Program-made: the position numbers and the translations under genes
Shown here: positions 20,651-52,659 of the stretch, in pieces
Position numbering within the stretch: position 1 is the stretch's first letter
Layout: the number at the start of each line of letters is the position of its first letter
From: Mariniflexile sp. TRM1-10
GTDB lineage: Bacteria; Bacteroidota; Bacteroidia; Flavobacteriales; Flavobacteriaceae
DNA length: 64,000 nt
NCBI RefSeq assembly: GCF_003425985.1
Contig: NZ_CP022985.1
Location: 719,501 to 783,500 of the forward strand
Direction: 5' to 3'
Notes under the pieces: model-generated
What the model saw: the letters and a program-made list of their open reading frames with translations, nothing else
The model's database searches: none
What the model was told of the DNA's origin: nothing

Positions 20651-20985
20651 AATAAAAAAACCAAAAAGCCGAGGGATACTCTTCAGGTTCATAACTTAAG
20701 AGATTGTTTAATTTTTTTTCGGAATGTTTTATAGGGTATTTTTTTGCCAGATAGGGCCGAGCGTATATAAAAGGTTTGGGAGACCTTTTTAGCGAAGGAG
20801 CCAGGCTGCCGCGAGGGAGAGGTACATAGCTATGAACCGAAAAATAGCTGATGTATGGCGGAAAAGGCACATAAAAGAGCCAAAGGATAAAACTTATACA
20901 GTCTCTAAGTAAGGTCCGTATTCTTTTAATATAATATTATGTACAAATGAATCATTGCTTAAATCCATACAATATTGTCATTTAC
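20651..20985 (-). pseudogene. Decayed second copy of the ftsZ 3' end and terminator, split by an insert
   Basis: Two blocks match the end of ftsZ. Block 20905-20960 aligns with 50641-50698 (about 80% by eye): shared CTAAGTAAGG, CTTTTAAT and AAATGAAT.ATTGCTT. It includes codons for SN.SF.H of the FtsZ tail, and weaker similarity reaches about 20985. Block 20651-20695 aligns with 50597-50640 (GAGGGATACT.TTC.GGTTCATAAC), the ftsZ terminator, here with a damaged stem. In the intact copy the blocks are contiguous; here 20696-20904 separates them. On the minus strand the order is ftsZ relic, terminator relic, yqeY, as expected if ftsZ once stood here. Confidence 0.75.
20696..20904. repeat. About 205-bp insert splitting the ftsZ-end relic
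   Basis: The insert begins at CTTAAGAGA (20695-20703) and ends at TCTCTAAG (20902-20909), near-inverted ends joined in the intact ftsZ copy as CTAAG. Its core (about 20750-20860) is more GC-rich than its surroundings. It holds two small hairpins (AAAGGT/ACCTTT and GGTaCATAG/CTATGaACC). A 93-codon minus-strand frame across it looks like a chance frame. It could be a small non-autonomous element or a structured RNA. Confidence 0.45.
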
Positions 20986-21072
20986 ATTTACAATTTTGTC
21001 AATCCACAATTTTTACTTTCAAATTAATTAATAATAAAATAAATTGCTATGGTTTATATTCTATTCAAAAAC

Positions 21073-21252
21073 GAACTCATCTTGACTTTTTGTTTTTAAC
21101 CGAAAATGGGATAAAATTTGTACAGATGAGGCGCTTTTTGCAAGGCATAGCGTCGCTACGCATAAAAAAAGTAACGAAATATGGATAAATTTTAGCCATT
21201 CCTGCCTGCCGGCAGGCAGGTTTTAGGAAATAGAAAAAGTCAAGATGAGTTC
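21073..21252. mobile_element. MITE-like inverted-repeat element upstream of the mannan PUL
   Basis: Perfect 19-bp inverted ends (GAACTCATCTTGACTTTTT at 21073-21091, its complement at 21234-21252) enclose a second inverted repeat (AATGGGATAAAATTT 21105-21119, AAATTTTAGCCATT 21187-21200). Inside is a perfect 20-bp palindrome CCTGCCTGCCGGCAGGCAGG at 21201-21220. The element is 180 bp and encodes no protein. It ends 20 bases before the first PUL gene, so it also occupies that gene's promoter region. Confidence 0.75.
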
Positions 21253-21272
21253 ACAACACCATAATCTAAGAC

Positions 21273-22283
21273 ATGAATAATTTTAAAGGCAAATTAATAA
21301 TATGTATTTATTTTTCATATATAACCCTTGGCTTTGCCCAGAGCTCTTTAGAGAGGGTATCGGTTAGTTCAAACAATTTTATTAATGAAAAAGGAAATAT
21401 CCTTGTTTTTAGAGGTTTGAATACAAGCGACCCCGATAAACTGGAATCCCAAGGCCATTGGAACAAATCCTACTTTAAAGAAATAAAAAAATGGGGTGCA
21501 AACATAGTTCGCTTCCCTATACATCCAACAACTTGGACAAAAAGAGGAAAGAAAAATTATCTTAAGCTTCTAGATGATGGTATAAAATGGGCGGAAGAGT
21601 TAGGTCTTTACGTTATAATTGATTGGCATAGCATTGGTAATTTACAAACAGAAATGTATCAGCACGATATGTACGATACCACATTAAAACAAACCTATGA
21701 TTTCTGGAGAACCATCGCTGTAAAATATGGAAAAAACACAACGGTAGCCTTTTATGAGTTATTTAATGAACCTACCACTTACAATAATACTTTAGGGACA
21801 GCAGATTGGGAAACATGGAAAACACTTAATGAGGAAATGATCACCATTGTTAGAGCTAATGGCGGCGAAGGTATTCCGCTTGTGGCAGGTTTCAATTGGG
21901 CCTATGATTTGACTCCAATTATCAATAATCCAATCCATGCAGAAGGTATTGCGTACGTAAGTCACCCTTATCCAGAAAAAAGAGAAAAGCCATGGGAAGA
22001 CGCATGGACAGCAGATTGGGGATTTGTAAAAGAAACATATCCAGTAATACTTACTGAGATTGGGTTTTGTGGCCCTGAAGATATAGGTCAGCACCATCCC
22101 GTTATAGGAGATGAATCTTATGGAGATGCCATAACCAATTATTGTGATGAAAAAGAAATTTCATATGTGATTTGGGTTTTTGATCCTAATTGGGCGCCAA
22201 GATTATTTGAAAACTGGAACTACACCCCATCAAGACATGGGAAGTATTTTAAGAAAAAACTTCAAAGCTATAACTACAATTAA
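21273..22283 (+). CDS. GH5 glycoside hydrolase (endo-beta-glucanase or mannanase)
   Basis: 336 residues with a signal peptide (SYITLGFAQ). A single GH5 (beta/alpha)8 domain: RGLNTSD, WGANIVRFPIHP, YVIIDWHS. The catalytic acid is Glu166 in FYELFNEPT, the conserved HPYP follows strand 6, and the nucleophile is Glu262 in ILTEIGF. The retaining endo-hydrolase is probably periplasmic or secreted. The subfamily is not clear to me; the sequence is unlike the GH5 at 27072. In this PUL it may cut glucose-containing stretches of glucomannan, while the GH26 enzymes cut mannan. It begins the run GH5-CE2-SASA-GH3. Confidence 0.88.
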   Translation: MNNFKGKLIICIYFSYITLGFAQSSLERVSVSSNNFINEKGNILVFRGLNTSDPDKLESQGHWNKSYFKEIKKWGANIVRFPIHPTTWTKRGKKNYLKLLDDGIKWAEELGLYVIIDWHSIGNLQTEMYQHDMYDTTLKQTYDFWRTIAVKYGKNTTVAFYELFNEPTTYNNTLGTADWETWKTLNEEMITIVRANGGEGIPLVAGFNWAYDLTPIINNPIHAEGIAYVSHPYPEKREKPWEDAWTADWGFVKETYPVILTEIGFCGPEDIGQHHPVIGDESYGDAITNYCDEKEISYVIWVFDPNWAPRLFENWNYTPSRHGKYFKKKLQSYNYN

Positions 22284-22313
22284 TAAAGGGTCCGTAGATT
22301 AAAAATACCATAT

Positions 22314-23408
22314 ATGAACATACACCTTCTTCAAATACTCATGCTTTCATTATTATTTAATTGCAATGAAACACTGCCAACAAAATATGGTGCAGGCAAC
22401 AAGAATTTTCAATATAATGGCAGATATGACCTTATTGAAAATGGTGCCGCATTAATATCTCCGGGAGCCTCTGTATCTATCAACTTTTCAGGGAATGTTT
22501 GCGAAATATATTTAAAGGCTGAAAAAGTCCCCTATAATTACGTAGCATTTGAATTAGATGGGAAATATCTCGGCAGAAAAAAAATTGAAAGCGAAACCAC
22601 TGAACCTTATGTTTTAGAAGTCTCTTCAAAAGAAAAGATACATACCTTAAAAATTATTAAAGAGTCTGAAGCCAGTAATGGATTTGTCTTATTTAGCGGG
22701 ATTAAGGTAGAGAAAGTTATGGGCTATACTCAACAACGAAAATATTATATTGAATATATTGGCGATTCCATTACATGTGGTGCCGTATCAGATGACAGTG
22801 TGATGCCTTGTGATGAAGGGAACTATTTTGACCATGAAAATGTATATTATTCTTATGGCGCCAATATGGCCAGAGCATTACAAGCTGATTTTATGCTAAG
22901 CTCTGTATCAGGCATCGGAATGTACAGAAATTGGAACGATGAAAACATAGAAGAACCCATCATGCCACAGGTTTATGAAAACTTATATCTAGATACGAAT
23001 CATTCAAAAAAATATAATTTTGAACGCAAGCCAAACATTGTTAGTATTTGTTTAGGAACCAATGATTTATCAAATGGTGATGGTATAAAACCTCGCTTAG
23101 CTTTTAATAAAGAAAAGTACACAGCCAATTACATTAACTTTGTAAAAACAGTCTATAACCACTATCCCAACACACAAATAGTTTTACTGAACAGCCCCAT
23201 GGTTGGTGGCGAAAATAATATATTATTGCTTTCATGTTTAAAAGAAGTACAATCCTATTTTGCTGAAAACAATAATAAATCTATTTTATTATTTGAGTTT
23301 GACAAAACATATACAAACGGTTGTTTATGGCATCCCAGTGTTGAAGATCATAGACAAATAGCCGAAAAACTAACGCCTTTTTTTAAAAACATTTTAAATA
23401 CTAAATAA
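22314..23408 (+). CDS. CE2-like SGNH carbohydrate acetylesterase, lipoprotein
   Basis: 364 residues with a lipobox (LSLLFNC, Cys near 18). An N-terminal beta-sandwich (about 30-135, INFSGNVCEIYLKAEKVPYNYVAF) precedes an SGNH hydrolase domain (about 140-360). The nucleophile is Ser152 in YIGDSITCG, the Asn block is ICLGTNDLSNGDG, and the His is His340 in LWHPSVEDH. This sandwich-plus-SGNH order is that of carbohydrate esterase family 2, whose members remove acetyl groups from mannose and glucose O-6 positions of glucomannan. It shares a TAATG stop/start with the next esterase. Confidence 0.85.
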   Translation: MNIHLLQILMLSLLFNCNETLPTKYGAGNKNFQYNGRYDLIENGAALISPGASVSINFSGNVCEIYLKAEKVPYNYVAFELDGKYLGRKKIESETTEPYVLEVSSKEKIHTLKIIKESEASNGFVLFSGIKVEKVMGYTQQRKYYIEYIGDSITCGAVSDDSVMPCDEGNYFDHENVYYSYGANMARALQADFMLSSVSGIGMYRNWNDENIEEPIMPQVYENLYLDTNHSKKYNFERKPNIVSICLGTNDLSNGDGIKPRLAFNKEKYTANYINFVKTVYNHYPNTQIVLLNSPMVGGENNILLLSCLKEVQSYFAENNNKSILLFEFDKTYTNGCLWHPSVEDHRQIAEKLTPFFKNILNTK

Positions 23409-24781
23409 TGAAGTTCTTAAAAATCATCGTGCTGTTATTGGTTGCAAAAGTATCCTATGCAAATGTGATTCTACCTTCAGTTTTTTCAGACCATATGGTT
23501 TTGCAACAACAAGACAACGTGAGGTTCTGGGGTTGGGCAAATCCAGATGAAGAAGTGGTTATATCACCATCTTGGACAGATGAAGATTACAAAACAAAAG
23601 CAACCAATCAAGCGTTTTGGGAACTTACCATAAAGACCCCGAAATTTGGCGGACCATTTACCATTGTAATTAAAGGCTATAATGAAATTGTTTTAAAGGA
23701 CATCTTAATTGGAGAAGTATGGTTGTGCTCGGGGCAATCCAATATGGAAATGTCGGCCAGCTGGGGAATTGAAAATGGTATAGAGGAAATAGCTGAAGCC
23801 AATCATCCAAACATTCGATTTTTCACAGTTCCAAAGGCTTCTGCTGAAAAACCTCAGAATAATTTAATAGCCAATTGGCAAGTCTGCACCTCCGAGAGCA
23901 TGGAACACACGAGTGCCTTGGCTTATTTTTTTGCCAAAAGAATACAGGAAAACCTAAACGATGTGCCCGTTGGACTATTGGTTTCTGCATGGGGCGGAAC
24001 ACCTGCCGAAATTTGGATGCCTGAAGAAATTATAAAAAGAGATTCTATATTGAATAAAGCCGCAAATAAATTAGCACCTACCACATATGGTCCCATAAAG
24101 CCAGCTAGAGCCTTTAATGCTATGATCAATCCGCTAATTGGTTACAACATCTCAGGTGTACTTTGGTATCAAGGAGAATCGAATGTGGGTTCAAAGGTAT
24201 ATGATAAAACCCTTGAAGCATTAATTCAATCTTGGCGCCATTTATGGCAGAAAAATGTTCCTTTTTATTTTGTCCAAATAGCTCCCTACACGTATGGGGA
24301 AAATCATTTTTCAGGTGTTGAAGTTAGGGATGCACAACGCAAAGTCACTGATAAAATTGAAAATACCGGCATGGTCGTTATCAGTGACATATCTCCTATA
24401 GATGACATTCATCCAAAGGACAAAAAATCAGTGGGCATTAGATTAGCTAATTTAGCTTTAAAAAAACATTATAACACGTTGGATGGATTGGTTGAAAGTC
24501 CAAGCTTTTCTAATGTAACATTCAAAAAAAACAAAGCCATTGTTTCTTTTAAAAATGCCGAAGGACTTTACTTAAAAGACAAGAAATCGTTATTTGAGAT
24601 TGCCGAAGCTGATAAAATGTTTTACCATGCTACTTATAAGATACAGGGCACAGATATTATCCTTTCATCAAATAAAATTACAACCCCCAAATACGTTAGA
24701 TTCGCTTGGGGAAACACTTTACAATCCAATCTGTTTAACAAGGCTGACCTACCAGCTTCCAGTTTTACAACAGAAAAATAA
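23408..24781 (+). CDS. SASA-type (DUF303) carbohydrate acetylesterase
   Basis: 457 residues with a signal peptide (LLLVAKVSYA). Family features of sialate/carbohydrate O-acetylesterases: LPSVFSDHMVLQQQ near the N-terminus, nucleophile Ser111 in CSGQSNMEM, LVSAWGGTPAEIWM, LWYQGESN, and the C-terminal His region IDDIHPKDKKSVGIRLA. It starts inside the stop of the CE2-like gene (TAATG), so the two are translationally coupled. The family name refers to sialic acid, but in PULs such enzymes deacetylate plant polysaccharides. Here it most likely removes acetyl groups the CE2-like enzyme does not. Confidence 0.87.
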   Translation: MKFLKIIVLLLVAKVSYANVILPSVFSDHMVLQQQDNVRFWGWANPDEEVVISPSWTDEDYKTKATNQAFWELTIKTPKFGGPFTIVIKGYNEIVLKDILIGEVWLCSGQSNMEMSASWGIENGIEEIAEANHPNIRFFTVPKASAEKPQNNLIANWQVCTSESMEHTSALAYFFAKRIQENLNDVPVGLLVSAWGGTPAEIWMPEEIIKRDSILNKAANKLAPTTYGPIKPARAFNAMINPLIGYNISGVLWYQGESNVGSKVYDKTLEALIQSWRHLWQKNVPFYFVQIAPYTYGENHFSGVEVRDAQRKVTDKIENTGMVVISDISPIDDIHPKDKKSVGIRLANLALKKHYNTLDGLVESPSFSNVTFKKNKAIVSFKNAEGLYLKDKKSLFEIAEADKMFYHATYKIQGTDIILSSNKITTPKYVRFAWGNTLQSNLFNKADLPASSFTTEK

Positions 24782-24799
24782 AAACGTAGATTAGATATC

Positions 24800-27088
24800 A
24801 TGAATTTAAAAAAATCGCAACTCATTTTCACTTTAATACTCATAGCTTTTATGAGTTGCCATGCACAAAAACCAACACCAATGAATACGAAAAACACCAT
24901 AGAACAAAAAATTGATGCCCTTTTAAAACGAATGACCGTAGAAGAAAAAGTAGGTCAAATGAATCAATACAATGGGTTTTGGGACGTTACTGGGCCTGCA
25001 CCTGAAGGAGGTAGTGCAGAAAAAAAATACGCCCATTTACGAAAGGGATGGGTCGGTTCCATGCTTACGGTAAGAGGCGCAAAAGCAGTAAGAGCTGTTC
25101 AAAAAATAGCCGTAGAAGAAACACGCTTGGGCATTCCATTAATTATAGGTTTTGATGTGATCCATGGATATAAAACGCTAAGTCCCATTCCATTGGCCGA
25201 AGCTGCCAGTTGGGACTTAGAAGCCATCAAAAAATCGGCTCAAACAGCGGCAGCCGAAGCATCAGCTTCTGGAATAAATTGGACCTTTGGCCCTATGGTT
25301 GACATCTCACGTGATGCTCGTTGGGGACGTGTTATGGAAGGTGCAGGTGAAGATCCGTTCTTAGGAAGCAAAATCGCCGAAGCCAGAATAAAAGGGTTTC
25401 AAGGTGACGACCTATCTGCAGTAAACACCATTGCCGCCTGTGCCAAACATTTTGCTGGGTACGGTTTTTCAGAAGCTGGAAAAGAATATAACACCGTTGA
25501 TATTGGGACTTCAACCTTGCATAATATAGTATTACCACCATTTAAAACAGCAGTTGATGTAGGGGTTAGAACATTAATGAACTCTTTTAATGAAGTAAAT
25601 GGCATACCAGCTACAGGAAACGCTTACTTACAAAGAGACATTTTAAAAGGCGCATGGCATTTTGATGGTTTTGTAGTTTCAGATTGGGCTTCCTTAAATG
25701 AAATGATTACTTGGGGATATGCCAAAGACAAACGTGAAGCTGCAAAAATAGCAGCTACAGCAGGTTCGGACATGGATATGGAAGGCTATGTGTATATTGA
25801 AGCATTAGCACAATTGGTAAAAGATGGTGTTGTAAGCGAATCGCTAGTAGATGATGCCGTTAGAAGGATATTAAGAGTAAAATTTGAGTTGGGTCTATTT
25901 GATGATCCTTATAAATATTGCGATGAAACACGTGAAAAGGAAACCATAGGCAGCTCAAAAAACCATGAAGTGGTATTGGATATGGCTAAAAAATCCATTG
26001 TGCTTTTAAAAAACGATAACAAGTTGCTTCCGTTAAAAAAAGAAGGGCAAGAAATCGCTTTGATTGGCGCATTGGCTAATGACAAATCCAGTCCTTTAGG
26101 AAGCTGGAGAATTGCCGCCGAAGACGATACAGCCGTATCTGTTTTAGAAGGAATGCAGCGATACAAAGGCAATACACTGACCTATGCTAAAGGAGCAGAT
26201 ATAACAACTGAAAAGGCCACCTTTGTTCAAGAAGTAGTTATCAATACAACCGACAAAAATGGGTTTGACGAAGCCCTTGCCATCGCTAAGCAATCTGATG
26301 TTGTGGTGATGGTTTTAGGTGAACATGGATTTCAAACTGGTGAAGGCAGAAGCAGAACCAATTTACTGTTACCTGGCGTGCAACAGGAGTTATTGGAAGC
26401 AGTGTATAAAGTAAACCCAAATATTGTTTTAGTATTAAATAACGGTCGGCCATTAGCTATCAATTGGGCTGATGAACATATTCCAGCGATTGTTGAAGCT
26501 TGGCAGTTAGGTACAGAAACCGGTAACGCCGTTGCCCAGGTTTTATATGGTGATTACAACCCAAGCGGAAAATTGCCAATGACATTTCCTAGAAACGTCG
26601 GCCAAATACCCATTTATTACAATTATAAAAACACAGGACGTCCCACAAATAAAGACAATAATGTGTTTTGGTCGCATTACACCGATGTAGAAAAAACGCC
26701 TTTATATCCTTTTGGATACGGGTTAAGTTATACCACTTTTGAATATTCTAATTTAAAATTGAATGGGAATTCCTTTAAAATGGGTGAAGATGTAAAAGTA
26801 TCTGTTACTTTAAAAAATACGGGGGACCTTACAGGAAAAGAAGTGGTACAGTTATATATTAGGGATTTATTTGCCTCTGTAACACGACCTGTAAAAGAGT
26901 TAAAAGGCTTCGAATTGGTTGAATTAAAAGCTGGGGAAACAAAAACCATTCATTTCACCTTAAACAAAGAAACCTTAGGGTTCTACGATAATGATGGAAC
27001 ATATATTGTAGAACCAGGGGATTTCAAAGTATTTGTTGGGGGAAGCTCTATAACAACTCTAGAGGCAGACTTTAATTTGATTGATTAA
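24800..27088 (+). CDS. GH3 beta-glucosidase-type exo-hydrolase, lipoprotein
   Basis: 762 residues, lipobox IAFMSC (Cys near residue 15-20). The GH3 N-terminal TIM barrel (about 35-380) has KVGQMNQ, GINWTFGPMVDISRDARWGR, KHFAGYG, and the nucleophile Asp295 in GFVVSDWASL. The C-terminal alpha/beta sandwich (about 400-620) and fibronectin-III-like domain (about 680-755) follow. Domain order and length fit BglX-type enzymes. In this locus it should remove terminal beta-1,4 glucose from glucomannan oligosaccharides. Its last 17 bases overlap the convergent GH5_7-like gene. Confidence 0.92.
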   Translation: MNLKKSQLIFTLILIAFMSCHAQKPTPMNTKNTIEQKIDALLKRMTVEEKVGQMNQYNGFWDVTGPAPEGGSAEKKYAHLRKGWVGSMLTVRGAKAVRAVQKIAVEETRLGIPLIIGFDVIHGYKTLSPIPLAEAASWDLEAIKKSAQTAAAEASASGINWTFGPMVDISRDARWGRVMEGAGEDPFLGSKIAEARIKGFQGDDLSAVNTIAACAKHFAGYGFSEAGKEYNTVDIGTSTLHNIVLPPFKTAVDVGVRTLMNSFNEVNGIPATGNAYLQRDILKGAWHFDGFVVSDWASLNEMITWGYAKDKREAAKIAATAGSDMDMEGYVYIEALAQLVKDGVVSESLVDDAVRRILRVKFELGLFDDPYKYCDETREKETIGSSKNHEVVLDMAKKSIVLLKNDNKLLPLKKEGQEIALIGALANDKSSPLGSWRIAAEDDTAVSVLEGMQRYKGNTLTYAKGADITTEKATFVQEVVINTTDKNGFDEALAIAKQSDVVVMVLGEHGFQTGEGRSRTNLLLPGVQQELLEAVYKVNPNIVLVLNNGRPLAINWADEHIPAIVEAWQLGTETGNAVAQVLYGDYNPSGKLPMTFPRNVGQIPIYYNYKNTGRPTNKDNNVFWSHYTDVEKTPLYPFGYGLSYTTFEYSNLKLNGNSFKMGEDVKVSVTLKNTGDLTGKEVVQLYIRDLFASVTRPVKELKGFELVELKAGETKTIHFTLNKETLGFYDNDGTYIVEPGDFKVFVGGSSITTLEADFNLID

Positions 27089-28403
27089 CCAACGCCTTAT
27101 TGGCTGTTTTTATCAGTTCCAAGGTTGAACTATCTGTGGCAAAAACGGAGTTCAAACCTTGGGGTTCTTGTGGCGGATCTGCCGTAAAATCATCGCCGTG
27201 TTGCCATTTGCCTTTTTCAGGATTGGTTTTAGCAAACCCTGCAAATCCCCAAAAGTTTAATCCCGCAAGAATCTCTTGCTTTGTATGGCTTTCGGTAATT
27301 CTGACAAAAATAGCGTTGTAAAATATATTTCGATTTTCTATAGAAGCCTCTAGAGACAAACTTTCTTTTTCACGTGGAAAACCAAATTCAGACACCACAA
27401 TGGGCTTATTGAGTTTCTTGGCTATTTCGATATGTTCATCCATATATTCATAAGCTTTTACAATGGATTCTTGTGTCGTTTGTTTTTCATTATTGATATC
27501 ATACCAACTCCAATTTTTAGGCCACATGTGCATGGTTAAATAATCAATGTTCTTGTTGGAATGCAATCTTTCGTACATCTTGATGTCATCTAAATAACTA
27601 GCTTTTCCTTCTGCTCCTGTAGACACCAAGTGGTTTGGATCTAGAGACTTAATTAAATCAACGGTTTCATTTAGCCAACTAGCAAAGGCTTTTTCGTGAT
27701 TGGGAGTCATTAACACTCTAGGCTCATTAGCAACTTGCCAAGACATGATCGTATTATCATTCACATATTTTATCCCAGAATATTTATTGGTTCTGCCAAT
27801 AATAAATTTAAGATGATTATAATAAGCCTCTTTACATGGTTTACAGCTATGAAATTGTTTGGTGTAATTCATATACTCATCCCAAGAATATTGTTCTAAA
27901 AAGGGGTTTGGAACTTCCCCATAGCCATTCCATTTTAGATATTCGGACATACCTCCAGACCAAATCCAATTATTGTTTAAATATAAAACGGCATACATCT
28001 GTCGTTTACGCATTTCTGCCATCAAAAAATCCAAACCATCTAATAAATCCTTATTATAAACCCCTTGTTCTGGTTGTAAAGTTGGATATACTTTAGAATC
28101 CCCTCCATCGCCTTCTGCTCCAACTAGAATACGTAAATTGTCAATACCTACTTCTTTCATTAAGTCCAATTCTTTAATGAGGCGATCCCTATCCCCACTA
28201 TTTTTAGCCGCTATTAATGGGCCATACCAATAATTTGCACCAACAAAATAATAGGGCTTACCATCTTTTATAAACTGGGAATCCTGAACCCTAATTTGGT
28301 CGATATCTACACTTCTTACAGCTTTTCTATATTGAGCACTTTTACAAGCCGAAAAAAGCACAATTGTAGAAATGAACAGGATAAATTTATTTATTTTCAT
28401 CAT
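27072..28403 (-). CDS. GH5 (subfamily 7-like) endo-beta-1,4-mannanase, lipoprotein
   Basis: 443 residues, lipobox IVLFSAC (Cys near 20). The mature start FIKDGKPYYFVGANYWYGPL and DLMKEVGIDNLRILVGAEG are typical of GH5_7 mannanases. The catalytic acid is Glu227 (SWQVANEPRV) and the nucleophile Glu339 (VVSEFGFPRE). It should cut internal mannosyl linkages at the cell surface. It is last of the six-gene minus-strand operon (GH26-SSS-GH130-AGE-GH26-GH5) and lies 9 bases after the preceding GH26. It overlaps the convergent GH3 stop by 17 bases. Confidence 0.92.
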   Translation of the reverse strand: MMKINKFILFISTIVLFSACKSAQYRKAVRSVDIDQIRVQDSQFIKDGKPYYFVGANYWYGPLIAAKNSGDRDRLIKELDLMKEVGIDNLRILVGAEGDGGDSKVYPTLQPEQGVYNKDLLDGLDFLMAEMRKRQMYAVLYLNNNWIWSGGMSEYLKWNGYGEVPNPFLEQYSWDEYMNYTKQFHSCKPCKEAYYNHLKFIIGRTNKYSGIKYVNDNTIMSWQVANEPRVLMTPNHEKAFASWLNETVDLIKSLDPNHLVSTGAEGKASYLDDIKMYERLHSNKNIDYLTMHMWPKNWSWYDINNEKQTTQESIVKAYEYMDEHIEIAKKLNKPIVVSEFGFPREKESLSLEASIENRNIFYNAIFVRITESHTKQEILAGLNFWGFAGFAKTNPEKGKWQHGDDFTADPPQEPQGLNSVFATDSSTLELIKTANKALVNQSN

Positions 28404-28412
28404 AAATGGGTT

Positions 28413-29654
28413 TTAGTTTGGTAACGTATACATAGTAGGCAATTCATTTTGAAGTACCGTTTTTGGTTTATTTGCAAAGGCAATAAAATCAGCAGTATCT
28501 GGTAACCCTGGTGCGGGTGTACAGTATGTAGTCTCCGTGTTATACCAAAACATCATATAACCAATTTCAGTATTATTAGCTGTTATGGCATTATACAAGT
28601 TTATTGAATAAAAATCAGGAATTGGATTATTTGTTCCAGGTGTGATAAAATAACCCGTTTCGGTGAGTGCAGCTATTTTAACCTTTTCTATCACCAAATT
28701 TGAAATAATTTGAAGTTTTTTATTGGCATTATTAACGCCAGTTTGTCCTTGGTTATTTAAATCGCCATAATTATCCATTCCAAGAATATCTACATAACTA
28801 TCCCCTGGATATCTTTCTAAATATTCAATTGAAGAATCAAAGCTATTATCGGGAGAAAAAGCAAAAAGAATATTATTAACATTCAAAATATCTCTTAAAT
28901 ATTCAACGGTAAATTGCCAAAGAGAAATAAATTGTTGCGGTGTGCAATATGATTTTCCCCACCAAAACCAATCACCATCAAACTCATGAAAAGGCCTAAA
29001 TATAAATGGCACTAATTTACCATCGTCACCGAACATACTTTTGGCAACTTCAGCAACTTTTTCAAGTTTTTGTTTATAATATTCATGATTATCCCCTCCA
29101 GGTAAAATACTAATAAAGGCATTGCTTTTCTGGAAATCTGTCATTTCACTGGTGTAAAAAGATACACCTTCATAAGGTTCTCTTAAGTGCCAACTAAATG
29201 CATTTACCATGCCTTTATTGTAGGCTTCAATGGCATCGGATTTAATGCGTTGTTCTTGCTGATAAAACCAATTTGAAGATGCCCCATCATTCAGGTCGTC
29301 TGTAATAAACAAAAAATCCGATCCTAATAATCCTGGATCACTCCCGGTTGTCTTCTTAATATCGGAATCTCCTGCAATGTTATTATAAAAATCATGAAAC
29401 GCATTATGCTGACCAACGATAAAGTGTGTTCTTGATAGTGTTTTAAGATTGTAAAACAAAGCAACTGTTTCGGCTGTAGCATTTGGGTTTACCATATATA
29501 ATCTAGTGTCTTGTGGTTGTAACACAAAAGTAGCATCTGGATTTGGAGGATCTTCTGGGAGTTCATCCTTAGCACAACCCGCTGTTAATAAGATCATAGC
29601 AAATAATCTATAAGTCCTGGTTTTATTTAATAATAGTTTACTTTGGTTTTTCAT
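28413..29654 (-). CDS. GH26 endo-beta-1,4-mannanase, lipoprotein
   Basis: 413 residues with a lipobox (LLTAGC, Cys near 27) and an acidic, Pro-rich linker after it (KDELPEDPPNPD) that may tether the enzyme to the surface. The GH26 barrel has GQHNAFHDF, the acid Glu224 in FRPFHEFDGDWFWWG, and the nucleophile Glu332 in ALTETGYF. It hydrolyses beta-mannan with retention. It follows the epimerase by 23 bases. With the other GH26 at 33908 it brackets the intracellular pathway genes; one may act on polymer outside and the other on oligosaccharides in the periplasm, as known for paired GH26 enzymes. Confidence 0.92.
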   Translation of the reverse strand: MKNQSKLLLNKTRTYRLFAMILLTAGCAKDELPEDPPNPDATFVLQPQDTRLYMVNPNATAETVALFYNLKTLSRTHFIVGQHNAFHDFYNNIAGDSDIKKTTGSDPGLLGSDFLFITDDLNDGASSNWFYQQEQRIKSDAIEAYNKGMVNAFSWHLREPYEGVSFYTSEMTDFQKSNAFISILPGGDNHEYYKQKLEKVAEVAKSMFGDDGKLVPFIFRPFHEFDGDWFWWGKSYCTPQQFISLWQFTVEYLRDILNVNNILFAFSPDNSFDSSIEYLERYPGDSYVDILGMDNYGDLNNQGQTGVNNANKKLQIISNLVIEKVKIAALTETGYFITPGTNNPIPDFYSINLYNAITANNTEIGYMMFWYNTETTYCTPAPGLPDTADFIAFANKPKTVLQNELPTMYTLPN

Positions 29655-30856: not shown

Positions 30857-30858
30857 AA

Positions 30859-32034: not shown

Positions 32035-32054
32035 TGTATTATTTTTAAAAGTTA

Positions 32055-39610: not shown

Positions 39611-39622
39611 AAAATTATTAAA

Positions 39623-41227: not shown

Positions 41228-41244
41228 CCATAAAAGCTAAAATT

Positions 41245-43820: not shown

Positions 43821-43835
43821 GCTATAAAAAATAGT

Positions 43836-46616
43836 ATGAAGAATATTTATCTCATTTTTTTGTTAATTTATGTGTCTTGCAATTCTAACAAAGAAGATTA
43901 TAGAGCGCGTCTTGATCTTGAAGGCGCATGGCAATTTTCTCTAGACTCTTTAAATATTGGTATGGAACAGCAATGGTATAATAGCAACTTAAATGATGTT
44001 GTTAAATTACCTGGGACTACAGATACCAATCAAAAAGGCATTCACAATAAAGACACGACCACCATGCACCTTAATAGAGTGTATAAATATGAAGGAGTCG
44101 CATGGTATCGAAAAAAAGTGGCCGTCCCCAAGAATTTTAACAATAAACATATTCAACTTTTTTTAGAACGCACCAAAGCATCAAAAATATGGATAGACAG
44201 TAGTTTTGTTGGAGAATCCAAACTACTTCAATCTGCTCAAACTTTCAATGTTTCTAATTATCTATCGCCTGGTGAGCATTATATAACTATTCAAATAAAT
44301 AATGATTTGAAACAAACGCCGTATGGCAATGTTCATATTTATTCAGATGACACACAAACCAACTGGAACGGTATCATTGGCGACATATACTTAGAAGCAT
44401 CGCCTAAAACCTATATTTCAAACCTTCAAGTATATCCAAATGTAGATGAAGATAAATTTGATGTTGAATTGGAAATAGAAAATCCTTTAAACTATAGCAC
44501 ATTTAATATTGAACTTGTTGTTGAAAAGACATATAAAGGTAAAACCACAAAACTAAAGTCACACAAATCGACCATCGATTATAAACCGAAAACAAAGTTA
44601 GTTTATGTATTTGATGAAAAACCAGACTTATGGGATGAATACGAGCAACCACTATATCTCTTAAAAGCAATCATATCCAACGAAAAAACGAAAGATGCTA
44701 AAACGGTTGGTTTTGGCATGCGAAAATTTGAAACGAAGGGTACACAATTTGCGATAAATGGGCGCACAACCTTTTTAAGAGGGAAACATGAAGCAGCCGT
44801 TTTTCCGTTAACCGGATATACACCCATGAATGTTGATGATTGGCTACGCGTTTTTAAAATTGCAAAATCCTATGGAATAAACCATTATCGCTTTCACACG
44901 TATTGTCCGCCAGAAGCTGCTTTTACCGCTGCCGACCAAGAAGGCATCTATATTCAAGCCGAGTTGCCATTCTGGGGTGGTTTGGAATCCCATACCATTG
45001 CCCAGGAGTTAAAAAAAGAAGGACTTGCCATGTTAAAAGCCTATGCAAATCACCCCTCGTTCGTTATGTTTTCACCTGGTAACGAAATATGGGATGGACA
45101 CGACAAGGTCGAAAAAATGATGCTTGCCTTTAAAAAGTTTGACTCTAGACCACTTTACACCATGGGTTCCAACAATAATATTGGTTATATGCCACCCACA
45201 GATTATGCCGATTTTTTTGTGGGCGCACGTATTCCTACAAACGGAAACACCATACAAGGACATACCCGATTAACCCATGCTTTTGCCGATGCCAATGACG
45301 GTGGCATATTGAATACTCTACAACCTTCAACCGAAATTAATTTCGACGATGCGGTTTCGCAATTAAGCATCCCAATTGTTGGCCATGAAATAGGGCAATA
45401 TCAAATATATCCAAACTATAAAGAAATTCACAAATACACAGGTGTTTTACGAGCTTGGAATTTAGAAGTTTTTAAGAATCGTCTTAAAAAATCTGGAATG
45501 CAAGAAATGGATAGTCTGTTTCAAAAAGCATCTGGAGCATGGTCTGCACTTTGCTACAAAGCAGAAATAGAAGCTGCTTTACGAACAAAAGGATTGGCAG
45601 GATTTCAGCTATTGGATTTACAGGATTTCCCTGGACAAGGCACTGCTCTTGTTGGTATTTTAGATGCCTTTATGGATAGTAAAAATGTCGTTACCCCGAA
45701 AGATTGGAAACAATCATGTAACGAATTAGCCATACTACCAGAGTTCCCCAAATACTGTTATATTAATAAAGAAAACTTCCAAGCAAAAATTAAAGTAGCA
45801 AATTATTCCAACACAACCATTAGTAACCCACTGCATTGGGAACTAAGAAAACAAGATGGAACCATGATACAGCAAGGTCATTTTTTAAATTTAAAGATTA
45901 TAAATGGACTAAATGATGTTGGAAGCATTAACATCCGTCTTTCGAGTATTTCTGAAGCTGAGAAATTAACCCTTCACACATATATAGTTAATACCAAATA
46001 TTCCAATTCCCATCCTATTTGGGTGTATCCAGCGAAAACAACTATTCAAATCCCTAATGATATTTTAGTAACAGAGGATTTAAATAATAATATACGCACC
46101 AAATTAAATCATGGAGCTAAAGTATTGCTATTTCCTCAAACCGAAGATGTAAAATCAACCAGTTTGCCAGGACATTTTCCTCCCGAATTTTGGAACTATG
46201 GCATGTTTAAAACCATTAGTGAACATGTAAACAGGCCTGTATCCCCAGGGACTTTGGGACTCTTAATGAATCCTGACCATAAGCTATTTAATTCTTTTCC
46301 AACCGATTTCCATACCAATTGGCAATGGTTTTCCATAATTAAAGCAAGTAATTCGTTGATTCTGGATAGTACCGCTAATGATTATTACCCGATTGTACAG
46401 GTAATTGATAACCTTGAAAGAAATCACAAATTGGGTTTAATCTTTGAATTTAAAGTTGGTAAAGGAAAATTGATAATTTGTATGTCTCAGCTAAACAAAA
46501 TGTTGGATAAACCAGAAGCGCTTCAATTGTATCAATCCATAATTAACTATATGAATTCTGAGGATTTTAAACCTAATTTTACACTGACTTCAAAAGAATT
46601 GGAAGAATTATTATAG
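43836..46616 (+). CDS. GH2-family glycoside hydrolase, lipoprotein, specificity uncertain
   Basis: 926 residues, lipobox IYVSC (Cys near 13). GH2 order: jelly-roll sugar-binding domain (about 25-190, GAWQFSLDSL, VAWYRKKVAVPKNF, WNGIIGDIYLEA), an Ig-like domain (about 195-290), then a TIM barrel (about 300-560; LRGKHEAAVFPLTG, GINHYRFHTYCPPEAAFTAAD). Likely acid Glu417 in SPGNEIWDG and likely nucleophile Glu518 in IVGHEIGQYQ. The C-terminal 350 residues are unassigned. GH2 beta-mannosidase would suit this locus, but the usual beta-mannosidase SEFG-type nucleophile motif is absent. Beta-galactosidase or another activity is possible. Confidence 0.85.
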   Translation: MKNIYLIFLLIYVSCNSNKEDYRARLDLEGAWQFSLDSLNIGMEQQWYNSNLNDVVKLPGTTDTNQKGIHNKDTTTMHLNRVYKYEGVAWYRKKVAVPKNFNNKHIQLFLERTKASKIWIDSSFVGESKLLQSAQTFNVSNYLSPGEHYITIQINNDLKQTPYGNVHIYSDDTQTNWNGIIGDIYLEASPKTYISNLQVYPNVDEDKFDVELEIENPLNYSTFNIELVVEKTYKGKTTKLKSHKSTIDYKPKTKLVYVFDEKPDLWDEYEQPLYLLKAIISNEKTKDAKTVGFGMRKFETKGTQFAINGRTTFLRGKHEAAVFPLTGYTPMNVDDWLRVFKIAKSYGINHYRFHTYCPPEAAFTAADQEGIYIQAELPFWGGLESHTIAQELKKEGLAMLKAYANHPSFVMFSPGNEIWDGHDKVEKMMLAFKKFDSRPLYTMGSNNNIGYMPPTDYADFFVGARIPTNGNTIQGHTRLTHAFADANDGGILNTLQPSTEINFDDAVSQLSIPIVGHEIGQYQIYPNYKEIHKYTGVLRAWNLEVFKNRLKKSGMQEMDSLFQKASGAWSALCYKAEIEAALRTKGLAGFQLLDLQDFPGQGTALVGILDAFMDSKNVVTPKDWKQSCNELAILPEFPKYCYINKENFQAKIKVANYSNTTISNPLHWELRKQDGTMIQQGHFLNLKIINGLNDVGSINIRLSSISEAEKLTLHTYIVNTKYSNSHPIWVYPAKTTIQIPNDILVTEDLNNNIRTKLNHGAKVLLFPQTEDVKSTSLPGHFPPEFWNYGMFKTISEHVNRPVSPGTLGLLMNPDHKLFNSFPTDFHTNWQWFSIIKASNSLILDSTANDYYPIVQVIDNLERNHKLGLIFEFKVGKGKLIICMSQLNKMLDKPEALQLYQSIINYMNSEDFKPNFTLTSKELEELL

Positions 46617-47273: not shown

Positions 47274-47696
47274 TTTTCAAATTTTTAATTTATCTGTTTT
47301 TAGTTGTTGTCAACGGTTACTATATAGCACTAAACTAAGCATTTTTTATATACAATGTTACCAGCCGCACTCACTTTTTTAGGATTTTTATTACGCAAAT
47401 ATATGCCGTTCCGAAATTCAGTGGCACGTTTTGGTTGCGCTTATTATGCCAGTCGGATTTATCTTTTGCGCACATAAAGCAGCCTTTATTCAGGACGTGG
47501 CACTTATTCCGTTGTATAGATTATCGCACTTTTGTTGCAAATCCAGTGGTACACTATGTCCGTTTTTGCACATGTAAGTACAGGACAGATATAATAGAAA
47601 TTAAAAATATATTTGTTTACATACCAACTAATAAGTGCATTATTTAAATGCATAAAAACCAAGCTTCGGCTTAAAAAATAACCAATTAAACTAATT
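47274..47696. other. Intergenic region before the PL11 gene
   Basis: 423 bases without a convincing gene; short frames here have unlikely composition. The part at about 47400-47580 (ccgttccgaaattcagtggcacg...gtggtacactatg) is more GC-rich than the PUL spacers and looks like decayed coding DNA or insertion debris. The PL11 promoter should lie at about 47600-47690. Confidence 0.35.
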
Positions 47697-50360
47697 ATGA
47701 AAACAAAACTTACCATTAAAAACACCCCGTTAGTTCATCAATTCACGGTTAAAAAACTATTTAAAAATAGGTTCCTTATGAGCCTGTCTTTAATTAGCAT
47801 CATGGCTCTTTGGAGTTGCTCACTTTTCGGACAACGTTACATGGAAAACCTTGACAGAGGATTAATTGCCATGCGAACCAATACTAACTCCGTGCTAATA
47901 AGTTGGCGGATTCCCGGTGACGAATACACCCAGAATGCTACCTACAATCTATATCGTGGGTCAACACTAATCGCTTCCAATCTTAACGTTTCAAATTATG
48001 TTGATGCAATCAGTACCGATAATTCTTATAGTGTAGCTGCTGTTATTGGAGGAACAGAGCAAGCACTTTCTGGCGCTACAGGTGTTAGGGGAAGTGGGTA
48101 TTTCACTATTCCCGTCAGATCGGTTAACGGTGGATACACTACCCATCATCTGAATGATGCCTCTGTTGGCGATCTGGATGGGGACGGGGAATACGAAATT
48201 GTTATAAAAAGACTCTCCAATGATGAATCCCCTACCTCACCCTATAATCACTATCTTGAAGCTTATGAACTTGACGGCACATTTATGTGGGCCATTGATT
48301 TGGGGCCCAATTTGTTACACGCGGTAGAGGTAAACTTTTTGGTATACGATTTTGATAATGATGGAAAGGCCGAAGTTGCTACCAGAACTTCAGATGGTAT
48401 GATAGACGGCTTAGGAAATAATATTGGCGACAGAGATGGGGACGGACAAATCAGCTATCGTTCTACAGCGTCACAAAATGGTCCTTTTTGGTTTAGAACC
48501 GAAGGACCCGATTACATATCAATATTTGATGGCGAAACAGGAGCAGAAATTGCATGGGATTGGTACATCGGTCTGGAACCAATAGCACAATGGGGGCTAC
48601 CGGGCCAAAACCTTTCTCAACTTGGTCACAGGGCTACCAAATGCATGTGGGCAGTTGCCTATCTCGATGGTGTAAATCCAAGCTTTGTAATCGGTAGAGG
48701 AATCTATAATCGAATAAAACTTGAAGCGTGGCATTTTAGAAATGGCTCTTTAACACAGGAGTGGGCTTGGGATAGCGATCCTAATGGTGTAGCCACTGCC
48801 TATACCGGACAAGGAAACCATAATCTTGCTGCCGGTGATGTTGATGGTGACGGGAGAGACGAGATAACTTATGGAGGCATGGCGGTTGATGAAAATGGCA
48901 ATGGTCTTTACTCCACCAGTTTTGGTCATGGCGATGCTGCTCATTTAGCAGATATTAACCCTGATATTGCCGGTCTGGAATATTTTAGCTGTCAAGAGTA
49001 TGCGAATGGCTCAACAATCCCGGGTATATCATTAAGAAATGCTGCTAATGGTACTATACAATGGGCAAATTGGTCCAGTGGTGATATTGGAAGATGTATG
49101 GCCGCAGATATAGATCCAAATTACAAAGGCATGGAAATATGGGGTTCTGATGGCTCTGGTCTTCGCAGCTGCACAGGTCAACTTATATCAACTGCAATAC
49201 CAACTTCTACGGGTGGTGGTGCTTCTTATAATTTTGGTATTTGGTGGGATGGCGATGTTCAACGTGAAATACTCGACAAAACTGTAATTGGTAAATGGAA
49301 TGGAACCGGGACCGGCAGAGTAGCCACATTATATAATATGGCGCCAATTTCTGATAATAATTCATCTAAATCCAATCCTAGCCTTATGGCCGATATTTTG
49401 GGTGACTGGCGGGAAGAAGTCATATACAGACGTACTGACAACACAGGTTTGATTGTTTTTGTTACTCCTTTCGTTACTAACCAAAGAATGTACACCTTAA
49501 TGCATGACCCTAACTACAGGTCAGCTATTGCATGGCAGAACAATTCGTATAACCAGCCTCCAAATCTTGGGTTTTATTTTGGTGGCGGAATGGATACACC
49601 ACCATCTCCTAATATTCAATTGGTAAATACTACCAGCGTTACCAACTATTATCAAATACAAAACCGAGGAACAGGTTTAGTAGTAGATGGATATGGTAAA
49701 ACGGGTAATGGTGATGACTGCAATCAATATGCCAACTCCACGAACCACAATAATTCATATTGGGAAATGGTAGATGTTGGTAATGGTTATGTACAGTTTG
49801 TAAACCGTGGAACAGGGATGATTCTTGATGGTATGGGACGTACTGCTAATGGATCTAATTGCGGCCAGTGGGCCAATACAACTAGTAATAATTCACAATG
49901 GTCCGTGCAACAATATAACGGCGATTATTACAGAATTCAAAATCGTGCTACAGGGTTGTTTTTAGATGGCATGGGAAGGACTGCTAATGGGTCTGTTGTT
50001 GGGCAATATGCAAATACTACCCATGTAAATGCACAATGGCTTTTAGTGGGCGACCCAGCCAATGCCAGTAAAGCAGCTTCATCTAAAAATTCGCTTGGTT
50101 TAGTTGTTAATGATGTTAAGCCCGAAGTGAAGATTTATCCCGTGCCATTTAAAAATGAATTTTATATAGATTTAGCTAAGGCAGGGAAGGTCAAACAAAT
50201 TGAGGTATTCAATATGCTTGGACAGCAAGTACGTTTAATAAAAGCAAATGACATTATAAATAAAATCACGAAAGTGAGTATTAATAGCGGTACAGGCATA
50301 TTCGCAGTTCAGATAGTTACAGAAAATGGCACTATAAATAAGACCATCATCAAAGAATAG
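47697..50360 (+). CDS. PL11-type rhamnogalacturonan lyase with ricin-like lectin and T9SS sorting domains
   Basis: 887 residues. Signal peptide with a late start (hydrophobic core about 28-45, SLISIMALWSC; cleavage near LFGQ). PL11 catalytic part at about 50-640: MENLDRGLIAMRT, DASVGDLDGDGEYEIVIKR, AAGDVDGDGRDEITYGGMA and LADILGDWREEVIYR, with Asp-rich calcium-binding loops of the eight-bladed propeller. A ricin-B-like lectin region (about 650-785) has three repeats of YYQIQNRGTGLVVDG type. A type A T9SS sorting domain ends the protein (about 815-887, YPVPFKNEFYIDL). It cleaves rhamnogalacturonan-I of pectin, a different substrate from the rest of the PUL. Confidence 0.9.
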   Translation: MKTKLTIKNTPLVHQFTVKKLFKNRFLMSLSLISIMALWSCSLFGQRYMENLDRGLIAMRTNTNSVLISWRIPGDEYTQNATYNLYRGSTLIASNLNVSNYVDAISTDNSYSVAAVIGGTEQALSGATGVRGSGYFTIPVRSVNGGYTTHHLNDASVGDLDGDGEYEIVIKRLSNDESPTSPYNHYLEAYELDGTFMWAIDLGPNLLHAVEVNFLVYDFDNDGKAEVATRTSDGMIDGLGNNIGDRDGDGQISYRSTASQNGPFWFRTEGPDYISIFDGETGAEIAWDWYIGLEPIAQWGLPGQNLSQLGHRATKCMWAVAYLDGVNPSFVIGRGIYNRIKLEAWHFRNGSLTQEWAWDSDPNGVATAYTGQGNHNLAAGDVDGDGRDEITYGGMAVDENGNGLYSTSFGHGDAAHLADINPDIAGLEYFSCQEYANGSTIPGISLRNAANGTIQWANWSSGDIGRCMAADIDPNYKGMEIWGSDGSGLRSCTGQLISTAIPTSTGGGASYNFGIWWDGDVQREILDKTVIGKWNGTGTGRVATLYNMAPISDNNSSKSNPSLMADILGDWREEVIYRRTDNTGLIVFVTPFVTNQRMYTLMHDPNYRSAIAWQNNSYNQPPNLGFYFGGGMDTPPSPNIQLVNTTSVTNYYQIQNRGTGLVVDGYGKTGNGDDCNQYANSTNHNNSYWEMVDVGNGYVQFVNRGTGMILDGMGRTANGSNCGQWANTTSNNSQWSVQQYNGDYYRIQNRATGLFLDGMGRTANGSVVGQYANTTHVNAQWLLVGDPANASKAASSKNSLGLVVNDVKPEVKIYPVPFKNEFYIDLAKAGKVKQIEVFNMLGQQVRLIKANDIINKITKVSINSGTGIFAVQIVTENGTINKTIIKE

Positions 50361-50389
50361 AACATAGTATCAATATTTATTATATTTCT

Positions 50390-50427
50390 AAACCTATCAG
50401 AAACCGTCGGTTTCTGATAGGTTTTTT
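50390..50427 (+). terminator. Rho-independent terminator after the PL11 gene
   Basis: A 16-bp perfect stem (AAACCTATCAGAAACC 50390-50405 and its complement 50409-50424, loop GTC) is followed by TTTTCT; the T-run begins in the stem. It starts 30 bases after the PL11 stop and can also act on the other strand. Confidence 0.9.
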
Positions 50428-50504
50428 TCTATGGTTTTTAAACGGCTTCCAATAAGAATGAAAGCTACAAAATATAATACCAAAATTCAGTAGACAAAAA
50501 AAAC

Positions 50505-50617
50505 ACGAATGTTGAATCTGTCAATGCCAAAATAAAAGCTTTTAAAATCCTGTTCAGAGGAGGAAAATCTAGCGCAGATGCCTCTGTAAAAAATCAATTA
50601 AAAAACCCGAAAAGCTG
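50505..50617 (+). pseudogene. Transposase C-terminal relic at the PUL/ftsZ junction
   Basis: An open plus-strand stretch without a start reads TNVESVNAKIKAFKILFRGG, then KSSADASVKNQLKNPKS and stop. The block ES.NAKIKAF...FRG is the pattern seen near the C-terminus of ISAon1-like DDE transposases of Bacteroidota, as I recall it. After FRGG the similarity is lost. The frame runs straight into the ftsZ terminator. This looks like the remnant of an insertion sequence at the right edge of the PUL. Confidence 0.6.
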
Positions 50618-50635
50618 AGGGATACTTTTCGGGTT
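50597..50635 (-). terminator. Terminator of ftsZ and the dcw cluster
   Basis: An 11-bp perfect stem (AACCCGAAAAG 50604-50614 and CTTTTCGGGTT 50625-50635) on the minus strand is followed by TTTTTAATTG. It lies 26 bases after the ftsZ stop. A decayed copy of this hairpin is present at 20651-20695. Confidence 0.88.
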
Positions 50636-50661
50636 CATAACTAAGTAAGGCCAGTATGCTT

Positions 50662-52659
50662 TTAATCTACATTATCATGTAAAAATGAATTATTGCTTCT
50701 TATTTGGATATCATCATTATCATCAAACCCAACGCTAGATCTAGACAAATCTGTTTCAGAAGAATGTTTTGCTTCATCTAAATTAACGCCTTGACGCTTA
50801 TAAGCTGGCACTCTTTCTATATCATCAATCTTGGCATTGTTGAATTTATAGTTAAAGTCTTTCATTTTACGTCTGCGTTCTTCAGCGCGCTCTTTAAGCA
50901 TTTCTGAAATAGGACTATTCATTGGATCTAATTCATCATCAGTGCTTTCTTCTTGAACAGGTGATTTAACCACTTTCTTTTCGAATACGACCTCTTGGTC
51001 AAATTCTTCTATCATCTCTTTGGCTTTTGCTTGCTTTTTGTTCATTGAAGATTCTACTTCTATATAATCTTCCAAAGCATAACGCATATCACCTTTTTCG
51101 GTTGTTTCGTTAACTGGTATTAACTCCACATAATCATTCACCGAAATTTTCTTAACATCATCGTCTAACTGAAATGATGTTATTTGGTCTTCTTCTTTTT
51201 CAACTTTATCGTTGGAAGATAAAGGTAAATCAAACGTTAATGTGATTTGTTTCTCTTCTTCAATATAATCTGAAACCACTTCTATATCGGCAATATCTTT
51301 GTCTTTTTTAGACATTCTAGTAACTGGTTTAATAATGAAATCGTCATCCTCCTGAACGTTTGCTCTTACCTCTTCATAAACTACTTGAATGTTTTTTATA
51401 AGTTCTGAAGTTGGTATTAAATCTATATTGTTGTCAATCGAAGGATTGCTAACTTTTTCTTCGTTTACAATCGTTTTTTCAGATTTAACAGGCTCATCTT
51501 CTTCAATATCAAAATCCAAAGTGTGCTTTACAACTGTGGGCTCTTTCTTTTCTTTTAACTCAATAACGGGAGCGATAATGACAGGTTCTTTTTCTTTAGG
51601 GCTGAAATCTAAATCTTCACTAACCAATGAATGCACAACCTTTTTTGTTTCGGTATTGGAAATTTCGTCTTGTTGCTCTATATTAAAACCTGTCGCAATA
51701 ATAGTTACAGCAATAGATTCTTCTAAACTTTCATCTTCCCCAACACCCATAATGATATTAGCACCATGACCCGCTTCATTTTGAATGTGGTCGTTTATTT
51801 CACCTATTTCATCAATGGTAATTTCGTGAGTTCCAGAAACTATTAGCAGCAATACATTTTTAGCTCCAGTAATTTTATTGTCATTTAACAATGGTGAATC
51901 CAAAGCTTTACGGATAGCATCTTGTGCACGGCTTTTCCCTGATGCCAATGCAGATCCCATAATAGCTGTTCCACTATTGCTTAATACGGTTTTAGCATCG
52001 CGTAAATCGATATTTTGTGTATAGTGGTGTGTAATAACTTCTGCTATACCACGAGCAGCTGTGGAAAGCACCTCATCGGCTTTAGAGAATCCTGCTTTAA
52101 AACCAAGATTGCCATATACTTCACGAAGCTTGTTGTTATTTATTACGATTAACGAATCCACCACATTTCTTAATTTCTCAATGCCAATTTGGGATTGCTC
52201 AATACGCATTTTGCCTTCAAACTGAAATGGCATGGTTACAATTCCTACGGTTAAGATATCTAAATCTTTAGCCATTTTAGCTATAATAGGTGCTGCACCG
52301 GTGCCCGTTCCACCTCCCATACCCGCTGTTATGAAAACCATTTTGGTATTGGTATCAAGCATATTTGAAATATCCTCGAAACTTTCAACCGCAGATTGTT
52401 CTCCAACTTGTGGGTTTGCTCCTGCTCCCAGCCCTTCAGTCAGGTTTACCCCTAATTGAATTTTGTTTGGTACACCGCTATTTTGAAGCGCTTGTGCATC
52501 TGTATTACAGATGTAAAAATCGACGCCTTTAATGCCTTGTTGGAACATGTGGTTAATGGCATTACTGCCGCCACCGCCAACACCAATAACCTTAATAACA
52601 TTTGATTGATTTTTTGGTAAATCAAATGCAATACTTTCGAATTCTTTCTTGCTGCTCAT
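50662..52659 (-). CDS. ftsZ: Cell-division protein FtsZ
   Basis: 665 residues. The tubulin-like GTPase core is at about 15-330: GVGGGGSNAINHM, the signature MGGGTGTGAAPIIAKMAKDL (about 110-130) and NNNKLREVYG. An unusually long, Asp/Glu/Lys-rich linker of roughly 300 residues follows, then a C-terminal tail (DDIQIRSNNSFLHDNVD) that should bind FtsA. Long linkers are common in Bacteroidota FtsZ. It polymerises at mid-cell to form the Z-ring. It follows ftsA by 56 bases and is the last dcw gene; its 3' end is duplicated in decayed form at 20.9 kb. Confidence 0.97.
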   Translation of the reverse strand: MSSKKEFESIAFDLPKNQSNVIKVIGVGGGGSNAINHMFQQGIKGVDFYICNTDAQALQNSGVPNKIQLGVNLTEGLGAGANPQVGEQSAVESFEDISNMLDTNTKMVFITAGMGGGTGTGAAPIIAKMAKDLDILTVGIVTMPFQFEGKMRIEQSQIGIEKLRNVVDSLIVINNNKLREVYGNLGFKAGFSKADEVLSTAARGIAEVITHHYTQNIDLRDAKTVLSNSGTAIMGSALASGKSRAQDAIRKALDSPLLNDNKITGAKNVLLLIVSGTHEITIDEIGEINDHIQNEAGHGANIIMGVGEDESLEESIAVTIIATGFNIEQQDEISNTETKKVVHSLVSEDLDFSPKEKEPVIIAPVIELKEKKEPTVVKHTLDFDIEEDEPVKSEKTIVNEEKVSNPSIDNNIDLIPTSELIKNIQVVYEEVRANVQEDDDFIIKPVTRMSKKDKDIADIEVVSDYIEEEKQITLTFDLPLSSNDKVEKEEDQITSFQLDDDVKKISVNDYVELIPVNETTEKGDMRYALEDYIEVESSMNKKQAKAKEMIEEFDQEVVFEKKVVKSPVQEESTDDELDPMNSPISEMLKERAEERRRKMKDFNYKFNNAKIDDIERVPAYKRQGVNLDEAKHSSETDLSRSSVGFDDNDDIQIRSNNSFLHDNVD

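Follow-up and report, generated by a model that had tools for sequence, protein, structure and literature searches.

In Escherichia coli K-12 the element e14, integrated in icd, supplies that gene with a new end, and the original one (165 bp, with 12 base differences) is found on the far side of the element (PMC11148124). Here we describe a 64,000-nucleotide stretch (the window) of the chromosome of Mariniflexile sp. TRM1-10, a strain from the tomato rhizosphere that has been described as close to M. soesokkakense (PMC11278836), in which a block predicted to include a polysaccharide utilization locus (PUL) for galactoglucomannan-type (beta-)mannan stands between the essential division gene ftsZ and yqeY. 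The block now measures ~29.6 kb (20.96-50.6 kb of the window) with 17 main open reading frames (ORFs), and it is flanked by two same-orientation copies of the ~100 bp with which ftsZ ends, namely 11 codons, the stop and the terminator, one of which still closes the intact gene and the other of which is a relic beside yqeY (Table 1). We regard it as nearly certain that an insertion with duplication happened at the ftsZ end.

Empty ftsZ-yqeY sites exist in relatives of this strain. In all five other genomes of the genus the ftsZ end lies 161-174 bp before yqeY, and among 80 further yqeY loci from the named collection (one of which, L054 in our numbering, is probably the same genome as G002) ftsZ was found in 73, with a gap to yqeY of 5-288 bp in 72 and of 1749 bp, holding one extra ORF, in L097. 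The remaining 7/80 loci had no ftsZ in the DNA at hand, which was short for L069 and L098, and in four of these seven, from Polaribacter or similar, another gene precedes yqeY. These counts bear out the original prediction, which had taken ftsZ and yqeY as common neighbours and proposed that about 30 kb had inserted at the ftsZ 3' end, so that relatives with ftsZ directly before yqeY should be found.

We found that BLASTN of one flank against the other aligns 20653-20696 with 50599-50642 (88.6% identity) and 20905-20960 with 50641-50698 (82.8% identity), each piece at E = 2e-11 and thus far above chance, and that the relic pieces are collinear with the intact end, the coding and terminator parts following each other in the correct order and at the correct distance. 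With the interrupting repeat removed the local alignment scored 121, whereas none of 3000 random segments of the window of equal length exceeded 29 (a shuffle-free null). Moreover, when the ftsZ end (50560-50760) was compared with the whole chromosome (4,858,325 bases, one contig), the first relic piece was the only match at low E besides the end itself (3.2e-9), the next of the 35 matches standing at E = 0.13; the match is single and therefore not a dispersed repeat of the kind which, if seen beside other genes, would have undone the proposal. The repeat starts ~11 codons upstream of the ftsZ stop, similarity of the relic farther into ftsZ being not above chance at the seven lengths tested (20 to 100 bases), and it ends just past the terminator T-run, so that ~100 bp were duplicated. 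Past the T-run the intact copy departs from the genus-shared sequence, whereas the relic continues into the genus-type spacer to yqeY, which shows directly that the intact end is the one at ftsZ and the relic the one at yqeY. The diverged partial copy had been placed nearly correctly beforehand, beside yqeY and in the same orientation, although its second piece is supported to ~20960 and not to 20985, and what had been passed over as a gap between its pieces (~20699-20905) is one member of a dispersed repeat family. This ~206 bp family, which resembles a miniature inverted-repeat transposable element (MITE), has 57 matching stretches in the genome, its own copy included, several of which are two parts of one shortened copy; eight copies were aligned. 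A second MITE-like repeat stands a little farther on, and its family has 88 matching stretches, again with its own, some of them being self-complementary parts of one copy.

The direction of the duplication can be read from the same ~100 bp. In a tree the intact and relic copies group together (bootstrap 74/100), with a branch of ~0 for the intact copy and of 0.16 substitutions per site for the relic. In 12 columns the relic is changed and the intact copy equals all five genus rows, the reverse case occurring in 0 columns, and in one column intact and relic agree against all five. Among 15 candidate rows, PUL-bearing genera included, the intact copy was the closest neighbour of the relic in 1901 of 2000 resamplings, and the terminator part of the relic folds less stably than that of the intact end (Table 1). 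Because the two copies are mutual nearest relatives and the clear changes are on the relic, the duplication arose in this strain's lineage. It also looks younger than the species split, since the fourfold sites of ftsZ differ by 0.38-0.56 between the window and the other species, the dates being rough and the columns few. Of the earlier proposal that the new ftsZ end was either brought or created, a distant-donor origin is hence disfavoured, as both copies are of this lineage. The ftsZ ends of two PUL-bearing genera were tried as donors and rejected: that of G066 matches the intact copy at 88/100 and the relic at 76/99 positions, so that the relic is less like it than like the intact copy (intact against relic, 85/98), and that of G034 matches them at 63/100 and 54/99.

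The empty sites, the repeat with its direction and age order, and the decay of one copy show that in this lineage a block, foreign or relocated, was inserted at the ftsZ 3' end and left the ~100 bp direct repeat, with ftsZ keeping a complete, working end on its side. The other copy remained attached to yqeY through the old spacer, ceased to function, gained the MITE-like repeat and decayed. In the mechanism that we consider most likely, and in which we place middling confidence as a whole, the repeat would be an attachment-type core at which incoming DNA bearing an ftsZ 3' end recombined with that of the chromosome, the integrase being later lost or acting in trans. Support comes from the repeat covering exactly what gives ftsZ a new end, and from a probable transposase remnant that touches the right junction (58% over 24 amino acids, E = 0.0066, to ORFs of genome G003, where the ORF is PF01610; the fragment itself had no Pfam match). 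Integrative elements at gene 3' ends share certain features, and of these an empty site in relatives and a direct repeat of the gene end at both junctions are present here; an integrase gene inside the element, usually near one end, was not seen, the serine recombinases of the window standing outside the block behind tRNA-Arg, and use of the same site was not detected in other genomes by a search of limited sensitivity.

Several points weigh against att-like integration. The grouping of the two copies has 74% bootstrap support from only ~100 columns. None of the block's 17 main ORFs matched a recombinase family, the smaller ORFs being unscanned, and there was no convincing second ftsZ end in the 288 other family genomes with a match; the earlier suggestion that the ftsZ end is targeted has accordingly lost ground as far as a site-specific system is concerned. 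Neither an att-like relic nor a circular form is known. Finally the block may be a mosaic built in steps and not one 30 kb unit, because its PL11 gene differs in GC and in company: GC is 42.8% in 48001-50000, the PL11 stretch, against 32-39% elsewhere in the window, and PL11 did not turn up beside the PUL in any of the 12 other PUL genomes. Between GH2 and PL11 lie 1.1 kb (46617-47696) without an ORF of 80 amino acids, which may be a scar where two parts of different origin meet.

The search for recurrence covered 397 family genomes, 289 of which match the ftsZ end at E <= 1e-4, with two candidates scored per genome, and a relic in a distant genus would escape it if short or old. Two matches were returned for 4/289 genomes, our own and three others. 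The second match was two pieces of one site in G175 and two strands of one place in G271, and in G232 it was 51 bp inside another ORF (E = 5.9e-6), which we took as chance; in the genus run, G003 gave a second match of 26 bases to the coding part only (E = 0.0012). In a search for phage carriers of an ftsZ end one IMG/VR contig matched the exact pattern, but its own ftsZ is complete. A yqeY search of IMG/VR returned no relative and is insensitive, since the matching contig does encode yqeY. A literature search of partial coverage gave no account of an island at the ftsZ end.

The evident landing site at this locus is the tRNA-Arg(TCG) gene behind yqeY, and not ftsZ, because recombinase genes occur near the tRNA in 9/85 loci and because that same IMG/VR contig, behind its tRNA-Arg, yqeY and complete ftsZ, continues into a prophage-like stretch that has an integrase. 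The tRNA lies within 400 bp of yqeY in 79/85 loci and at 484-2206 bp in four more, and it is missing in two, both of which end just past yqeY. With only three query proteins we found serine recombinases near the tRNA in L024, L073 and L081, the gene running into the tRNA in L024 and L081 as it does in the window, and tyrosine recombinases in L076, L085, L093, L107, L115 and L120, that of L115 being a 50-residue match 2.2 kb away; Pfam confirmed seven of the nine. Serine or tyrosine recombinases close to this tRNA are thus present in several genera and in the one IMG/VR contig (the eight loci L024, L073, L076, L081, L085, L093, L107 and L120, and L145). In the window two large serine recombinases stand in tandem at 16188-20013, and the nearer of them ends ~640 bp from the relic. 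No copy of the tRNA-Arg 3' end that would mark an island border was found within ~99 kb to its left. Left of the recombinases (564-15271) are genes for a sigma factor, FecR, SusC/SusD, thioredoxin-like proteins, an RHS-repeat protein and a MauE-like protein.

The first GH26 of the mannan PUL was matched at E <= 1e-120 in 13/299 family genomes, our own included, and it is absent from all five other genomes of the genus at E <= 1e-10. G066 has a collinear cluster from GH5 to GH27, which is 74-94% identical except for SusC (55%), SusD (49%) and the surface protein (27%), and the other PUL genomes have the cluster with some reordering. For SusC and SusD the closer match is G132 (72 and 75%), whose PUL is otherwise more distant, a pattern which suggests that uptake genes have been exchanged inside a conserved PUL. 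As to position, G005 has the order ftsZ-yqeY-tRNA-Arg-rpe-rpoD-pnp-rpsO within ~8 kb (rpe, pnp, rpsO and fbaA above NCBIfam cut-offs, the sigma factor and accD as best matches below cut-off). In G034 the mannan PUL lies directly behind tRNA-Arg of ftsZ-yqeY-tRNA-Arg and before rpe and rpoD, in G066 it lies between rpoD and pnp, and in G054 ~40 kb off on the other side of ftsZ; the remaining nine PUL genomes showed no anchor genes of the ftsZ-to-pnp locus in the 60-80 kb fetched. The sites in G034 and G066 are parts of one ancestral locus, whose order rests on G005, G034 and G066 because rpe, rpoD and pnp were not found in 38-99 kb beyond the tRNA in G000, G001, G003 and G004. The chance of 2/12 PULs falling within a ~60 kb locus in 4 Mb is ~0.013, for a locus that was picked after seeing the data.

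The order in G034 raises a serious rival to att-like integration, though a rather unlikely one in our estimate, in which the PUL first stood behind tRNA-Arg, the unit ftsZ end-yqeY-tRNA-PUL was duplicated in tandem, and the first yqeY-tRNA and the second PUL were then lost. The product would be ftsZ-end-PUL-end-yqeY-tRNA, with a direct repeat and no integrase, in keeping with both ftsZ ends coming from the same lineage and with the main ORFs of the block holding no recombinase. However, relative to ftsZ the PUL of the window is opposite to those of G034 and G066, so that an inversion would also be needed, the sequence following the intact terminator showed no trace of yqeY or of the old spacer, and the PUL is in none of the other five genus genomes. 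A wider proposal, improbable as a whole, is that ftsZ-yqeY-tRNA-Arg-rpe-rpoD-pnp is a PUL landing zone in Flavobacteriaceae, with the same mannan PUL settled at a different joint in each of three genera (ftsZ|yqeY here, tRNA-Arg|rpe in G034, rpoD|pnp in G066), and that one element used the ftsZ 3' end as an attachment site with a recombinase in trans, possibly the serine recombinases of the tRNA-Arg island. It is also conceivable, if unlikely, that the insertion was illegitimate or partly homologous and used no attachment site, either through a ~100-base staggered break filled in around linear foreign DNA or through one-sided recombination of an ftsZ-end fragment. Such an event would account for a self-derived duplication, its uniqueness and the absent integrase, but a 100-base fill-in running from the last codons to just past the terminator would be a coincidence, if one lessened by selection for a working ftsZ, which would favour such endpoints. 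Chance similarity or a dispersed terminator-like repeat with no duplication at all, to which an AT-rich region and the likeness of terminators lend some colour, is refuted by the E-value of each piece, the 3000-segment null, the single match in the genome and the right order and spacing of the parts.

In the block SusC/SusD stand in one cluster with GH26, GH130, GH27, GH5, CE2, a regulator and a symporter, the company by which a beta-mannan (galactoglucomannan) PUL is recognised, and by this gene content the cluster would act on galactoglucomannan-type mannan. Plant mannan and pectin would be food in the tomato rhizosphere. The features of the locus are collected in Table 1.

Table 1. Features of the ftsZ-yqeY locus, in window coordinates.
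Feature	Position	Strand	Remarks
Second large serine recombinase	16188..17648	+	
Large serine recombinase, 3' end running into tRNA-Arg	18451..20013	+	Belongs to the tRNA site, not to the mannan block
tRNA-Arg(TCG), conserved behind yqeY	19966..20040	-	
yqeY, ancestral downstream neighbour of ftsZ	20103..20552	-	Pfam PF09424
Relic of ftsZ 3' end, terminator part	20651..20698	-	-9.1 kcal/mol; terminator scan found no terminator-like site
MITE-like dispersed repeat, ~206 bp, splitting the relic	20699..20905	.	Terminal inverted repeats AGAGAYTGT; TAA either side
Relic of ftsZ 3' end, coding part	20905..20960	-	~11 codons, 2-base deletion, stop region degraded
Second MITE-like repeat, ~180 bp	21073..21252	.	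25-base terminal inverted repeats
GH5 (cellulase family)	21273..22283	+	
CE2 acetylesterase	22314..23408	+	
SASA-domain acetylesterase	23408..24781	+	
GH3 beta-glucosidase	24800..27088	+	BglX model above cut-off
Conserved PUL protein, no Pfam family	27072..28403	-	Weak glycosidase similarity only
GH26 mannanase	28413..29654	-	
AGE-family epimerase	29678..30856	-	Nearest model cellobiose 2-epimerase, below cut-off
GH130 phosphorylase	30859..32112	-	
Sodium:solute symporter	32055..33893	-	
GH26, second copy	33908..35086	-	
AraC-type regulator	35244..36122	+	
SusC, SusD, IPT/TIG-domain surface protein (three ORFs)	36419..42357	+	
GH27 alpha-galactosidase	42440..43642	+	
GH2	43836..46616	+	
PL11 rhamnogalacturonan lyase with ricin-type lectin	47697..50360	+	
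Terminator-like site of the PL11 gene	50390..50424	+	
Probable decayed 3' fragment of ISL3-type transposase	50478..50597	+	Weak; touches the ftsZ terminator
Direct-repeat copy at ftsZ, intact: final 11 codons, stop and terminator	50597..50698	-	From alignments
Intact ftsZ terminator, 13-pair stem	50603..50636	-	-18.1 kcal/mol for 50597-50640
ftsZ, intact, 665 amino acids	50662..52659	-	NCBIfam TIGR00065 above cut-off; 87-91% amino acid identity to the five other genus copies

The insertion beside an essential gene is real, clean and dated, and events of its type are already known; its wider claim depends on the same ftsZ end being used again. If att-like integration is true, an attachment site can lie in the end of an essential division gene, whose last codons are conserved across the family, and a complete carbohydrate pathway could be added there without hurting division. 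If on the other hand duplication and deletion produced the arrangement, it would be the footprint of integrase-free PUL movement within a chromosome, which is seldom caught in so datable a form. On either reading the locus gives a clean before-and-after picture, and the comparison of loci marks tRNA-Arg(TCG) behind yqeY as a spot where PUL traffic in Flavobacteriaceae may be sought.

Compared with known systems, the window resembles islands at tRNA genes with serine or tyrosine recombinases in that a recombinase gene lies close to tRNA-Arg(TCG), but unlike such islands the mannan block lies across yqeY from the tRNA, with no recombinase found in it. In its contents it resembles the beta-mannan PUL of Muricauda sp. 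MAR_2010_75 and relatives, with at least two GH26, GH5, GH27, GH130, an epimerase, CE2 in the search set, a symporter, an AraC regulator and SusCD (PMC9860051); the available part of that account makes no mention of PL11, an ftsZ junction, a chromosomal site or transfer. The e14 prophage carries an integrase gene, in contrast to the window, where the cargo is a PUL in which no recombinase was found and the relic is decayed noncoding DNA. Like e14 in icd, however, the block is inserted at the 3' end of a housekeeping gene, with a complete end at the gene and a partial copy on the far side (PMC11148124).

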